From contig OY783208.1 of NCBI GenBank assembly GCA_963678705.1, positions 1,798,001-1,862,000 on the forward strand: a stretch of 64,000 nt of DNA. Direction: 5' to 3'. Below are positions 8,298 to 47,059 of this stretch, piece by piece; the stretch's first letter is position 1; each line of letters opens with the position of its first letter. The translations under genes and the position numbers were made by a program. Source of the stretch: Panorpa germanica (taxonomy: Eukaryota; Arthropoda; Insecta; Mecoptera; Panorpidae). The notes beneath the pieces were generated by a model, which saw only the letters and a program-made list of their open reading frames with translations, was not told where the DNA came from and ran no database searches.

Positions 8298-8351
8298 AAA
8301 TATCCAAACCATGTAGTTCACCTATTAATAAACAGATGGCAGTGCTCTTAC

Positions 8352-8666
8352 CTCGATCATATTTAGTCCTTAAAGCCACAAGACTTGAAATCATTCTTGC
8401 TCTATGCGCTGAATTTTTAACTCCTAAGTCTTTTAAATCGGATTCATTATATTTGAGCATATCTTCAACACCGTTGAAGTGATCCAGGAGTCCTTGATAT
8501 TGTCCTAGCTCAAGAACATTCAACCATTGTCGAATATCCAGGTGGGGTCCTGTCGTTGTTGATCCATTTTGCATTGTTACTGGAATTACCGTCATATTTA
8601 GCGGCATATTTTTATTTCGCCGGGATAGTGTGCTGATTGACGGGAACCGGAAACTCCAGGCTATGC
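8352..8666 (-). CDS. SAM-domain protein, internal exon
   Basis: On the minus strand a consensus acceptor (TAATTGTTCCAG) precedes 8666 and a consensus donor (GAG/GTAAGAG) follows 8352. The 315-nt exon between them is open throughout, entering with two bases of a split codon and leaving with one. The last 60 or so residues form a SAM domain: WLNVLELGQYQGLL, then DMLKYNESDLKDLGVKNSAH and RARMISSLVALRTKY, with the usual hydrophobic spacing and the D-L-x-x-L-G-V core. SAM domains mediate protein-protein or RNA contacts. The first part is a low-complexity linker. The next exons are not recognisable here, so introns are large. The ATG at 8607 is probably an internal Met, not the start. The family cannot be named from this exon alone. 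Confidence 0.8.
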
Positions 8667-8829
8667 CTGGAACAATTAGAAAATAACAAATTAATTATAT
8701 GCATATGTTACAGAGTAAATATAAAATTAAAATAACTTTTTGTACTGCACTACAATGAAACTAGCATGAACATTAAATAGACATTAATAAAGATAGATAT
8801 TGCAGTTATTAAAGAAACAATGATAGAAG

Positions 8830-12663: not shown

Positions 12664-13414
12664 TTAAGGAGGTACAGGACGTTAACGTAAATGATGAAAT
12701 TTGGAGGGTCGATTTAAATAGTTAAAATACATGCTGTCTCAAAATTTTAGAGACCTAGGGTTCATAGTTTTCTTTTTATACATGATTAAAAATAGTCATT
12801 TTCCATACAAATCATAATTTTTAGCTCAATTTCACCACATAATATAACTTTTAACTATAAAAAAATGGTGACACGGCTTTCAAAAACTAGGTGTATATAA
12901 AAGAATCTTTTCTGTAACTATTGCAAAAAGAAAATTATCAAAAGGATACCTATTTACGAAAATATTTAAATAAAACCTTTAAGAAACAGTAAATGTAGGT
13001 TATAAGCCGGCAACGTTGCAAATGCCAATTTGAGCGGAAAATTCAAAATCGGAATAAATGTTATATAAAATATAACAATTTATTGGTCAAAGAACCAAAT
13101 CACGCATGCGTCAACACACATAAATTTACAGCGTTGCAAAATTTATTATTCTTTTTTCAAAATATTTAATTTGTATTTAAATTGAATTAATATAAATTTG
13201 ATATTAATTATAGGTAATTTTTAATTTATTAAACTATTATATGCATAAAAAATCATTTTAACAAGCAAAAAGCAGTTTAATAGGGAATTGAAAAATTCAT
13301 TTTCAAAGGTACAGTCCCAATATTTGCTCGTCCCTCATGTACTTCGTATTTTGCATTTCGTATTACCTAGAGATAAACTTTTTGCATCGACGGTACGTCC
13401 TGTACCTCCTTTAA
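12664..13414 (+). mobile_element. MITE family B (B2)
   Basis: About 745 bp with the family B inverted ends and TTAA or TTTAA flanks. It splits repeat Q. The uninterrupted Q at 26195-26215 reads TTTTAAACG at the corresponding point, showing this is an insertion at TTAA with one base change since. Confidence 0.85.
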
Positions 13415-18212: not shown

Positions 18213-20753
18213 TTATTCATTGGTACAAAATCTCTTCAATCTATTCCTATTAACTACCGTATACTTTCTAGGTGAAAAAAAAGAATTGACCCTTCTATCA
18301 AAATTTAATTTAAATTTTGGTTTATTACTAGTAAATTTATTTGTAGCTAAATCAATCGTAGAAGAATATTTTGCACCACTAAATTGGTCTAGTATGTCAT
18401 GTACGAGAGGCAAAGTATAAACATCACTTGTCGTCTGTTCATTAAGTTTACGATAGTCGATTACAACGCAAAATTGTTTGTTCCCCGACACATCTGCTTT
18501 TTTAGGTACCATTAACAGAGGTGCGTTAAACTGTGAGTCGCATTTTTCAATAATGTTGTTAGCCAACAGTTCTTGGATATGCTTCTCAACAATTTCTTTA
18601 TGCGCATGAGATAATCTATGCGGCTTAATGTTTACAGGGTTAGGTGAGTCACTCAGTGCACTCGCACAAGATAACTTATCTACCGGGAAAAAAAATATGT
18701 TATTAAAATTATTACAGATTTCCATTAAATCTGTTAAGTATTTTGAATTAACATTTGAAAAGTCTATATTATTAAATAAAAGATGTCGTAAGGATCTTTT
18801 AGGATCGTTAGGATTTCTTTTCAAAAAATGGTAAAAATTAAATTTATTTATTGGAATAATATTTGGTTTAAAATTGTTAAGTATTACATCTTTTGCTGAG
18901 GAATTAGTTATTGATATATAAAAAGTATTATTAACAGGATTAATTAATGCGTTGGCTAAAAAAACTTCAGGTAGCAATTCCTTGGCTACACAAACTCCTA
19001 CCGTAGAACCCGACATAGGAATTAATTTCCTAGTACGTGCTGGAACTATGATAATACTGTTTATGTTCAATAATGGAAATTCAAACATTTTGCCATGTTG
19101 TGAGAATTGTACGCTGTTTGTTACCAAATTAATTACTGCTTTAAATGTACGTAAAATATCTAATCCTATAATTCCATCGTGTTTAATGGGGAAATCCTTT
19201 GACACAACCTGAAAAGTATGTTTCGACCTAGAACTATCTAAAATTATAGAAGTTTTTAGTGAACCTAAAGTATAAGGCGTGCCTTCAGAGATTCCCTTTA
19301 ATAACACTTTAGATGTACTATCTATTTTGATATTATTTTTTAAAATATTTTGTTTAATTAAAGAAATTTGAGAACCAGTGTCCAATAAAAATGATACAGT
19401 CTTTGCTTTGGCTGCGACTATTCTGAATTGAACAGTGTCAGCTGTTTGCTTGTCAATAACATTTTCATTGTTACAGTTAAAATTTGTTATATCATTGGTA
19501 TTTTGTATTTCTTTAATCTCAATATTTTTATTTAAACTATTAAATTTACGTAAATGGTGATTATAAAAAGAACGTGAATTTTGTTTTGTATTTTTAGTAA
19601 AAGATGCTTGAGGACCATCAGATTCAAGATGTCTCGATCTTTTACAATAAACAGAAGGTTTTGAAAATACCGTAGCTCTCCTACAAATATTAATTTGCGC
19701 GACAGGATTTACCGTATCCGCATTTTCCTTCTTGATAAAACAATATTTCTCTAAATGACCATTTTTTTTACAATAGTTACAAAAAAAAGTTTTAAATTTT
19801 GTTTCGACTTCGTTAGCAAATTGTTCACTTGAAACTGGTTCACTACTAGAAATAGAATGACTTGAATCTGTTTTAAATTCAACATGCCTTCTTCTTTCTA
19901 GAGTGCGCCACCGTGTTTCAAGAAAATTCGTAAAATCATTTAGGGTTGGTAATTCAGAAGTATTTCTGTTTTCCCATTCCTTTAATGTGTTAAAATCTAA
20001 CTTGGTCTTTAAAAAATGTATAAAAATAAAATCTGAATGATTAGAATATATTCCCAACTCGGTTAATGCTCTAATCGATTCATTAATTTCGTCTAAAAAA
20101 TTTTTGATATTAGTTTCTGATTCTAAACGTATAACATTGTAGTTTATCAAATTGTTTAAATAGGTTTCAATAAGTGCTACCTTGTTATCATAACGTTTAC
20201 AAAGGATGTTCCAAACAATTTCATAATTATCGTTTGTTAAAGGATAATTCTTTATGAGTTTGAGTGGTTCTCCTGTCAAATTTAATTTTAAATAATGCAT
20301 TTTTTCAATGTTTGATAGTTTGCTATTATTACGAATTAAATTTGTAAATAATTCCATGAAACTTTGCCAATTAGTATATTCTCCATCAAAAACGGTTAGT
20401 TGCATTGGACTTAAGTTCAGATTTTTTATTGAATCTATGCTTTTTGAGTCGTCTACAGTATGTGTATCATTCTCAAATGTTTGCTTATAATTCAACAAGT
20501 AAATAAGAGTGTCGTCATAAATACTTTCAACTTCCATAGACTTACTAACGATAGCCGTAGCTTCTTCATTTTTTAGAATTGGAAGCAGTGCTTCTACGAT
20601 ACTACTATATTTTACCCAAGCTTTATCTAAGTTTTTGATTTTTAATTCAACTATTGTTAAGGATGTTGATTGGACTTCTAAATTTTTTGAAAACTCATTA
20701 ATTAGATTGATTGTATTCTCAACTAATGTGAGGGAATGAACGTTCGGTGCCAT
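18213..20753 (-). CDS. Gag-protease-partial RT polyprotein of LTR element
   Basis: 846 codons without a stop. Residues about 110-210 resemble the DUF1759-type gag region (LTVFDGEYTNWQSF, MHYLKLNLTGEPLKLI). A CCHC zinc knuckle follows at C325-x2-C328-x4-H333-x4-C338. An aspartic protease has its DTG at 458-460 (FLLDTGSQISLI) and a flap-side GIIGLDIL at 527-534. RT begins near 705 with PHRLSHAHKEIVEKH, VPKKAD and IDYRKLNEQT, in Ty3/gypsy style, and reaches motif A (STIDLA, 799-803). It then runs out of frame into about 43 unrelated residues. YxDD, RNase H and integrase are absent. The start is chosen as the first Met after a leader, with gag homology downstream. DUF1759 is commoner in BEL/Pao elements, so gag and RT affinities differ; this is family knowledge that I could not test. 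Confidence 0.9.
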   Translation of the reverse strand: MAPNVHSLTLVENTINLINEFSKNLEVQSTSLTIVELKIKNLDKAWVKYSSIVEALLPILKNEEATAIVSKSMEVESIYDDTLIYLLNYKQTFENDTHTVDDSKSIDSIKNLNLSPMQLTVFDGEYTNWQSFMELFTNLIRNNSKLSNIEKMHYLKLNLTGEPLKLIKNYPLTNDNYEIVWNILCKRYDNKVALIETYLNNLINYNVIRLESETNIKNFLDEINESIRALTELGIYSNHSDFIFIHFLKTKLDFNTLKEWENRNTSELPTLNDFTNFLETRWRTLERRRHVEFKTDSSHSISSSEPVSSEQFANEVETKFKTFFCNYCKKNGHLEKYCFIKKENADTVNPVAQINICRRATVFSKPSVYCKRSRHLESDGPQASFTKNTKQNSRSFYNHHLRKFNSLNKNIEIKEIQNTNDITNFNCNNENVIDKQTADTVQFRIVAAKAKTVSFLLDTGSQISLIKQNILKNNIKIDSTSKVLLKGISEGTPYTLGSLKTSIILDSSRSKHTFQVVSKDFPIKHDGIIGLDILRTFKAVINLVTNSVQFSQHGKMFEFPLLNINSIIIVPARTRKLIPMSGSTVGVCVAKELLPEVFLANALINPVNNTFYISITNSSAKDVILNNFKPNIIPINKFNFYHFLKRNPNDPKRSLRHLLFNNIDFSNVNSKYLTDLMEICNNFNNIFFFPVDKLSCASALSDSPNPVNIKPHRLSHAHKEIVEKHIQELLANNIIEKCDSQFNAPLLMVPKKADVSGNKQFCVVIDYRKLNEQTTSDVYTLPLVHDILDQFSGAKYSSTIDLATNKFTSNKPKFKLNFDRRVNSFFSPRKYTVVNRNRLKRFCTNE

Positions 20754-21063
20754 TGTACTTAATTAAAGTTATATATAATATACAGACTAAAGATTATTTT
20801 GTACCAATAAACGACTCTCCGAAAAATAGGATTCTGACAAGGAAAAATTGTTAGCGAAAACAGTAACTCACAGGAAATTTCCGATGGGGCTCAGACGTTG
20901 CAGTTGTAACAGGAAGGTAGTCTCTCTGATTGAACAGACTGCTATCTAACTGCTTCAGCTCTTTACTTCTCCTTTTCAAAATTCCCTCTCGTTCAAAAAA
21001 AGATGTTGTTCTAAAAAAATATTAACATAAATTAGTATAATTGTGGAAACAATTATAAAAAAA

Positions 21064-35470: not shown

Positions 35471-35615
35471 ATAGGGATTGAGAAAGAACTGTAGAGGCAG
35501 CACTACTGTCGAAAGTGGAGCGCTCTGGTGTCATAAATGTAAAGGATTGTGATGTAAACAGCGTAGAAATAGTATATGCATAGAATAGTATATAAATAAA
35601 TAATGCAAAAAATAA

Positions 35616-36210
35616 TTAAATTCGGGTTCTTGATAATCTTGAACCTTGATAATCAGATTTAATAGGATCTGGAGTAATTGGATCACACCCAACATCTTCA
35701 ACATTCTTTCGTAAAAGCGGCAAATTAACATCACACATTTTTTCGGCTGTCCTTTTAATTGGAATGTTTACTTGCACTTCTGCAGTAGTTACACCATCAC
35801 GGGAATTTATGTTACAAAAAAAATACTTATGTTCATCTAAAACACTTTCATCAACAATTTCATCAGTTTGACATGTTATACTACGAGTTGTTTTTTGTGG
35901 AGTAGCATCAGAAGCATAATGATCTTCAACGCTCTGTGTTTCAATATCTACATAATTATCCTCTTGAATTTCAATTTCATTATTATTATTATTATTATTA
36001 TTATTGATATTCATTTCACTTCGTACATTCCGTTGCCGTAATCGTTCGAAACGTTCAAATGACTGAGTGGATTTTTTGGTGTTTACTTTACCAGGAAAAA
36101 TTGTTGGTGTGTATGAAGGATGCCGAGGATGTTCTGACTTTTGATTATTCACAAAATGATCACTACAAAAGCGTATATTTTTAGTTGGTTCCCAATCCTT
36201 TGGATATTTT
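35616..36210 (-). CDS. THAP-domain protein, exon 2
   Basis: Continues exon 1 after a 157-bp GT-AG intron. The acceptor is TTTGTGTTTCAG, and the first base completes a split Val codon. The exon supplies the rest of the THAP domain: WEPTKNIRFCSDHF, with C72-x2-H75 as the second metal-binding pair, and the closing SYTPTIFP motif. Next come a basic stretch, a nine-Asn run encoded by an ATT/AAT microsatellite (35979-36005), an acidic stretch, and RSITCQTDEIVDES. It stops at 35616 after 197 further codons. Total predicted length is 254 residues. There is no DDE or RNase H-like region. The end may be the deletion joint of the transposon. Confidence 0.88.
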
Positions 36211-36367
36211 CTGAAACACAAATTTTTTAAATTTTACTTTTACTTATTACTATTTTATTTATTTCATAAAATAATTATTATATAGTTTAATATTCTATTT
36301 TATAATACTTAGCTTTTCAAATTTGATTGTGATTAATTAAATTTTTTTATTAAAATAATTTACTTAC
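36211..36367 (-). other. Intron of the THAP gene
   Basis: 157 bp with donor GTAAGTA and acceptor TTTCAG on the minus strand. Splicing restores a continuous THAP domain, which is strong evidence that the intron is real. Confidence 0.85.
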
Positions 36368-36537
36368 ACATAGTTTTTCACTGCATTTATCCATTGTTGA
36401 CGTTTAAGGGTTATCCATTCTGAATTCAGAGTACTCGCAGGGAAACGATAAAATTTCACACTTGTATTTTGGTTTTTGTTTTTATATGGCATATTGAAAC
36501 AGCCACGGATACAGCACGATACTTTTGACGAAGACAT
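36368..36537 (-). CDS. THAP-domain protein, exon 1
   Basis: 56 codons plus two bases, from ATG at 36537. It encodes the first metal pair (SCCIRGCFN, C8 or C9 with C13), the FYRFP motif and the conserved Trp residues of a THAP zinc finger (W41, W49). THAP fingers bind specific DNA through a C2CH zinc site. The 5' flank up to the inverted end is only about 130 bp and should hold the promoter. Confidence 0.88.
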
Positions 36538-36789
36538 TACTTAAAATTATTTCGATTAGATTAAAAAAATTATTAATTTAACAAATTCCTTATTGTTTTC
36601 TATACCACTTGCCACCACTTTGCTTTACATTTACATTACATTTTCTCGGTAGTTGGCGTCAAAGTCATCTTTCTCAATCCCTATAGAAAATTTCTTTTTG
36701 TTTTCTCATCTCTTTTATATAACGGAGACGTATACGAGTGTCTGTGTGATACGTCATAACAGCTGGTTGTGTATTCCATGAAGAGAAAA

Positions 36790-46257: not shown

Positions 46258-46875
46258 CTAAACTTTATTCCCTAAATGAGTTTTTTGATGTCTTCTCATT
46301 GAATCAACTCGTGAAAAACATCTGTTACAAAAAGTGCATGAAAATGATTTCAAACCCAAATGACTACTATTTTGATGTTGTTTTAAATTATATGAATTAG
46401 TAAACGATTTATCACATTGATTACAAGAAAATGGCTTCAAACCTAAATGTCCATTTTTATGTCGTACTAAATGTGTTGATCGACTAAACGTTTCGTTACA
46501 TTGGTCACAAGAATATGGTTTCAAACCTAAATGTGTGTTATAATGTCGATTTAAACTGGATAAATATTTAAATGTCTTATTACATTCACTACAAGAATGT
46601 AGCGTCCTTTTATCTGTATGTACTTCAAACTGTTTTATGATTTCGTTCTTGTTGTCTAATGATATGATATATGCTTCACATATATTAGGCTTCACTTTCT
46701 TATATGGTAGTTCTTCATTTTGTGAAATTTCAGCTTCTTCTGAATTATCCTTAGGTTCTTCTTTTATTTCTATTATAATTTCATCAGAAGATGTTACTTC
46801 TTTGATAACTATATCATTTTCTGTTACGATTTGGTTATATACAATATCAATTTCCAAATCTTTGTGATCCTCCAT
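46258..46875 (-). CDS. C2H2 zinc-finger protein, 205 residues
   Basis: Start is taken at the Met at 46875 (MEDHKDLEID), because an acceptor-like TTTTGTTTTAG ends at 46901 just upstream and the longer frame from 46962 would read through it. The N-terminal 90 residues are acidic and include IIIEIKEEPKD, common in insect zinc-finger proteins. Four C2H2 fingers follow: C95/C98/H111/H115, C123/C126/H139/H143, C151/C154/H167/H172 and C180/C183/H196/H200. The linkers read LGLKP instead of the canonical TGEKP. It is likely a DNA-binding nuclear factor. AATAAA overlaps the last codons, three bases before the stop, implying a very short 3' UTR or a retained signal. It is short for its family, and a 5' exon is expected upstream. 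Confidence 0.85.
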   Translation of the reverse strand: MEDHKDLEIDIVYNQIVTENDIVIKEVTSSDEIIIEIKEEPKDNSEEAEISQNEELPYKKVKPNICEAYIISLDNKNEIIKQFEVHTDKRTLHSCSECNKTFKYLSSLNRHYNTHLGLKPYSCDQCNETFSRSTHLVRHKNGHLGLKPFSCNQCDKSFTNSYNLKQHQNSSHLGLKSFSCTFCNRCFSRVDSMRRHQKTHLGNKV

Positions 46876-46926
46876 ATCGATGTAGAAATTTAAGCGTGTA
46901 CTAAAACAAAAATGAATGTTGCAATT

Positions 46927-46967
46927 ATTCGATATAGCTACACCTTTTGTTTTGAATCTCATGAAAT
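46927..46967 (-). repeat. Inverted copy of 47257-47303
   Basis: CGATATAGCTACACCTTTTG and onwards is the reverse complement of 47257-47303. A direct diverged copy of the latter lies at 48235-48290. The repeat lies at the 5' side of the zinc-finger gene. Confidence 0.7.
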
Positions 46968-47059
46968 AACTATTACACTTTCGTATATTTCCTGGCGCTT
47001 TTAATATAGTGAAAACATGTACAAATCACACGTAATATACATTATACAATTTTTTATTA

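Follow-up and report, generated by a model that had tools for sequence, protein, structure and literature searches.

Structure of the element

The window analyzed here is a stretch of 64,000 nucleotides from Panorpa germanica (C5:1798001-1862000), and the genome searched is the window's own (464 Mb in 249 contigs). Positions 35473-36682 of the window are occupied by a 1,210-bp element whose left terminal inverted repeat, AGGGATTGAGAAAGA (35473..35487, + strand), is matched exactly by its right terminal inverted repeat (36668..36682, − strand), and which is flanked by AT at 35471..35472 and 36683..36684 (no strand). The perfect 15-bp inverted ends with AT on each side had been recognized in the preliminary description, and the AT is upheld as a target-site duplication by its presence on both sides in 26 of 30 type-A-side loci, type A being the kind of copy to which the window element belongs. 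The only exact matches to the 15-bp end in the window are the element's own two ends; with two mismatches allowed, three matches were found versus 0.11 expected from shuffled sequences. Once the flanking TCTAT/ATAGA is counted, the inverted match extends to 20 bp, and the window copy alone would also allow a TA, TATA, or CTATAG duplication; these candidates were ruled out by the comparison of loci, which gives AT.

The − strand of the element carries a two-exon gene. Exon 1 (36368..36537) contains the start codon, an ATG at 36537, and the first half of a THAP domain; it is followed by a GT...AG intron (36211..36367), with the donor GT after 36368 and the acceptor AG before 36210. Exon 2 (35616..36210) encodes the remainder of the THAP domain, a linker, and an 8-residue tail derived from filler and left-end sequence, and the stop codon ends at 35616. 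Both splice dinucleotides are present in 29 of 30 loci, the sole exception being L150, in which the donor is AT. The spliced product of 254 residues matches the full Pfam THAP profile (1-87 of 87; E 7.4e-10), and no other Pfam family scored above the cut-off in the window copy's protein. Thus, the coordinates, the two exons, the 36210/36368 junction, the length of 254 residues, the complete THAP domain, and the lack of a transposase core had all been described correctly from the sequence alone.

Of the seven PDB entries retrieved with this protein, THAP11 (E 0.0004) is the single THAP relative; the remaining six (E 0.051 to 0.75) were rejected as fusion or tag proteins, and the two of these whose alignments were inspected match over the asparagine run and its surroundings. 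No relative of the THAP protein was found in viral contigs or in bacterial and archaeal genomes. At least 120 stretches matching the 15-bp end in viral contigs were taken as chance and left unused.

A 10-bp sequence, AAATGTAAAG, which was found on the long copy L155 and read off here, lies near the left end (35535..35544, +) and, in inverted orientation, near the right end (36623..36632, −), and the pair is a candidate binding site. A 10-bp AATGTAATGT insertion (36633-36642) lies beside the latter site and is absent from all 27 other type-A copies compared. Comparison with L155 identifies 35603..35631 (+) as a remnant of a YqaJ gene, comprising its first codons, of which the ATG is the putative start, and stopping at the deletion junction; it is followed by a 10-bp filler (35632..35641, no strand), a copy of the adjacent GATTATCAAG, at a point where about 2.5 kb of the parent is absent.

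Elsewhere in the window, an 849-aa frame with DUF1759 and a retroviral-type aspartyl protease domain (18216-20762, −) looks like part of an LTR retroelement, a 255-aa frame (46261-47025, −) encodes a C2H2 zinc-finger protein, and a SAM-domain frame (8299-8694, −) is probably a host gene exon. Inverted pairs of TTAAGGAGGTACAGGACGT, or most of it, are located about 0.75 kb apart at 36868-36886/37610-37628 and also at 12666/13411, and may mark the termini of a further family of short repeats.

Full-length relatives and origin of the deletion

Four long relatives are present in the same genome: L155 (3,671 bp, AT on both sides), L156 (3,945 bp, flanked by GT at its left end and by AT at its right), L157 (rearranged, one end missing), and a copy on contig C1 (4802130 to 4806074, AT on both sides). 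The first three were found among ten additional stretches retrieved from the genome. In L155, exon 2 (477 aa) contains the Pfam domains HTH_Tnp_4 (1.4e-7) and DDE_Tnp_4 (7.3e-41), the spliced transposase is 527 aa long, and its THAP region is nearly identical to the Pfam-matched THAP of the window copy; a 430-aa frame on the other strand contains the YqaJ domain (1.5e-12). Among the four, open frames for both genes are found only in L155: in L156, two stops interrupt the transposase and the YqaJ exons are open, L157 has a frameshifted transposase and a broken YqaJ gene, and the C1 copy has a transposase with one stop and a shortened exon 1, together with a broken YqaJ gene. The parent type is a transposon of about 3.7-3.9 kb with two converging genes, one for a spliced THAP-HTH-DDE transposase and one for YqaJ. 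The earlier suggestion that the element is a deletion derivative was borne out by the genome search, since THAP and DDE domains are encoded by these longer elements, which share its ends. More distant transposase relatives, with 52-75% identity to L155, were observed at C1:2116022, C5:9934666, C8:178942, C7:299805, C5:2748451, and C84:4759, some with long open frames.

Compared with L155, the window element runs up to GATTATCAAGGTT, continues with the 10-bp filler CAAGATTATC, and resumes with AAGAACCCG from the other end. The parent frame is cut after DYQG and meets a stop eight residues on. A genome-wide scan allowing up to two mismatches located this junction 67 times, of which 58 are exact and 9 deviate by one base, whereas a reversed control pattern had no match. 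The presence of one junction, including its filler, at 67 places shows that a single deletion event was multiplied; the filler, being a repeat of the neighboring GATTATCAAG, suggests that the template was switched during repair.

Taken together, the ends common to the full-length elements and the absence of the catalytic core make the window element, with high probability, an ISL2EU (Harbinger-like) transposon derivative that is non-autonomous and arose by internal deletion, an assignment resting on the duplication, the domains, and the YqaJ gene. One deletion took away the last part of the linker together with the HTH region, the DDE core, and all but a small part of the YqaJ gene; what remains is the THAP domain, the linker, and the 8-residue tail. 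According to this model, the break may have been produced by faulty gap repair with template switching after excision, and the resulting copies would have been moved in trans by the transposase of full-length elements. The THAP frame persists, on this reading, because the copies are young, each decaying neutrally after insertion.

Copies and types of derivative

The genome search with the element returned at least 46 matches, at least 32 of them spanning all or nearly all of it, with 40 of the 131 candidates scored. In all 26 type-A-side loci that carry AT at each flank, this AT is bordered on its outer side by A or T, and both ends start with AGGG in 26 of the 30 loci; L125 reads AT...AT, but its terminal bases are lost. 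Since some junctions are segmental duplicates, such as L146 and L148, which share flanks, independent insertions number fewer than 67. Contig C5, to which the window belongs, makes up 5.3% of the genome and holds 22 of the 67 type-A and 7 of the 43 type-B junctions, an excess that is probably due in part to segmental duplication. After removal of L148, which lies at the site of L146, and of the type-C copy L138, 28 distinct type-A copies were retained.

A second derivative, type B (1,425-1,507 bp; 25 copies after removal of L187, the same copy as L151, and L178, which has the length and flanks of L177), still contains the HTH region and is marked by a junction of its own, for which 43 sites were found, 36 of them exact and 7 differing by one base. 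AT is present on both sides in 24 of the 25 copies, and A or T lies immediately outside on the left in 24 and on the right in all 25; L176 reads TATA on the right. The frame is broken inside the THAP domain in 22 of the 25 copies read, 21 of which carry an 11-bp deletion in exon 1, with another early frameshift in L152; THAP is still read through in L151, L153, and L154 (209, 106, and 202 residues, respectively). The normal exon-2 stretch is absent from all 25, and no splice acceptor was found by the search pattern in L176 and L180. Divergence within type is 0.78% for type B versus 1.51% for type A, and private divergence is 0.22% versus 0.42% (p 0.01, 24 copies each), tentatively suggesting that type B is the younger, with both samples ranked by similarity to a query. 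A rarer third type, C, is represented by L138/L164 (one copy) and L181.

The window copy occupies a distinct position among type-A copies. All 27 others compared have a 12-bp deletion and adjacent changes near the left end, whereas the window copy lacks this deletion and is similar in that region to the full-length copies. A tree was built from 28 type-A, 24 type-B, and 3 long copies (L167 was also dropped from the type-B set, and L191, whose left end lay outside the sequence retrieved, was left out). In it, the window copy joins the long copies (support 88), and the remaining 27 type-A copies form one group (support 92). A pattern combining the filler junction with the undeleted left end matches the window copy alone in the whole genome, with up to three mismatches allowed. 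Judged by these sequences, the window copy looks like the basal form of the derivative, although its left end may instead have been converted by a full-length copy.

Decay of the THAP frame

The preliminary description had considered the frame unusually intact for a non-autonomous element, a view that the comparison of copies does not sustain. Among the 28 distinct type-A copies, which are those of the 67 most like the window copy, 14 have an open frame (15 of 30 loci), versus a mean of 14.7 (95% range 9.5-19.5) in 301 runs of a neutral simulation that took its substitution counts from the private changes of the copies themselves and its indel rate from noncoding sequence. Indel density does not differ between coding and noncoding sequence when a variable run of asparagine codons is excluded (Fisher p 0.48). 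Private coding changes in 29 copies, with L138 retained and its scrambled tail masked, comprise 71 non-synonymous, 16 synonymous, and 8 stop changes, near the expected fractions of 0.733, 0.204, and 0.063. Selection on the frame was therefore rejected, as both the intact count and these proportions are close to neutral expectation.

Changes common to at least two copies affect 10 of 765 coding versus 19 of 423 noncoding sites (16 noncoding without L138). This sparseness in coding sequence could hint at constraint; however, all ten shared coding changes are non-synonymous and none is synonymous, the opposite of the pattern left by purifying selection at the protein level. In addition, L140 and L141, which lie at different sites, have a common frameshift, indicating that a frame-broken copy multiplied too.

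Discussion

The data favor simple parasitism with neutral decay: the window element is real but looks ordinary for its kind, with a fragment that appears intact from youth rather than need. A finer version of this explanation, not an opposite to it, holds that the short copies act as passive titrators or parasites, soaking up transposase or moving preferentially, and that the THAP frame is irrelevant. This somewhat probable account agrees with the spread of type B to its 43 junctions despite a mostly broken THAP domain in the copies read, with the multiplication of type-A copies whose frame is broken, and with passages of PMC12393704 on the preferential mobilization of deleted P elements.

Alternatively, the truncated THAP-linker protein might be made, bind the ends of full-length elements, block the transposase, and so have aided the persistence of the derivative, in the manner of the KP repressor. 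Retention of the DNA-binding half and both ends means that repression by competition for the ends could occur, and the two properties of P-element repressors given in passages of PMC12393704, an interrupted transposase and a DNA-binding domain, are both found here. The ends, upstream region, and splice sites are retained as well, KP itself provides a precedent (PMC7776569), and a family in which just one of four long copies has both frames open might fit repression. Several observations argue against this reading. The frame bears no sign of selection, and residues 91-254 contain no heptad of four L/I/V/M by a crude test, unlike KP with its leucine zipper. Furthermore, a poly(A) hexamer (AATAAA or ATTAAA) is missing between the stop position and the end of the element in all 30 loci; L155 has two ATTAAA less than 200 nt from its stop, and the window copy has one about 142 nt into the flank. 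Finally, the lower divergence of type B, with its broken THAP, weakly suggests, from query-ranked samples, that the family continued to move after type A arose. Such a repressor thus appears unlikely. Still less likely is the more specific proposal that a KP-like, self-limiting THAP repressor arose independently in ISL2EU, outside the P superfamily, with the window copy as its surviving basal form: the sole copy found with a parent-like left end and a possible source copy.

The preliminary description had also offered a step towards domestication, in which a host THAP gene is in the making. The spliced frame is intact in the window copy, but a multicopy mobile family with 67 junctions, intact ends and duplications, and neutral decay is far from the single-copy, immobile gene under purifying selection that defines a domesticated one, making this reading highly improbable. 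That unrelated inverted repeats flank a host THAP gene by chance is refuted because these ends, this junction, and the duplications recur at numerous positions in the genome, and this reading retained no support after the genome search.

Comparison with known systems

The closest match is ISL2EU of the PHIS/Harbinger-like superfamily, for which sections of PMC4482050 and PMC9179366 describe an AT duplication, an A/T-rich target, a THAP-HTH-DDE transposase, and a YqaJ gene. The family studied here shares the AT duplication in an A/T context and the two genes of its long relatives, whereas the window copy lacks HTH, DDE, and YqaJ. It also differs in that its ends begin with AG versus usually GG (a usual feature, not a defining one) and its long copies measure 3.7-3.9 kb versus an average of about 4.8 kb, with both reference values taken from PMC4482050. 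No description of a THAP-only ISL2EU derivative was found among the titles and abstract openings of the papers listed, and one may exist elsewhere.

KP and other internally deleted P elements, as portrayed in excerpts of PMC7776569 and PMC12393704, likewise keep their ends and THAP domain and encode a truncated protein; they belong to another superfamily, and in the present element the 3′ gene end is also deleted. Short Har-P elements are comparable as non-autonomous copies acting with full-length transposase and differ in being highly truncated (PMC6917496). Galileo, as described in PMC3688188, resembles the present family in its THAP domain, which has sites inside the ends, and in its internally deleted relatives, and differs in its P-superfamily membership and long inverted repeats.

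Internally deleted transposons that retain a DNA-binding fragment are known best from P elements. The family described here provides a natural experiment outside that group, with two derivatives of one ISL2EU family, one with THAP open in half of the copies read and the other with THAP mostly broken, alongside one long copy in which both genes are open; comparing the spread and expression of both derivatives could test whether the THAP fragment matters.
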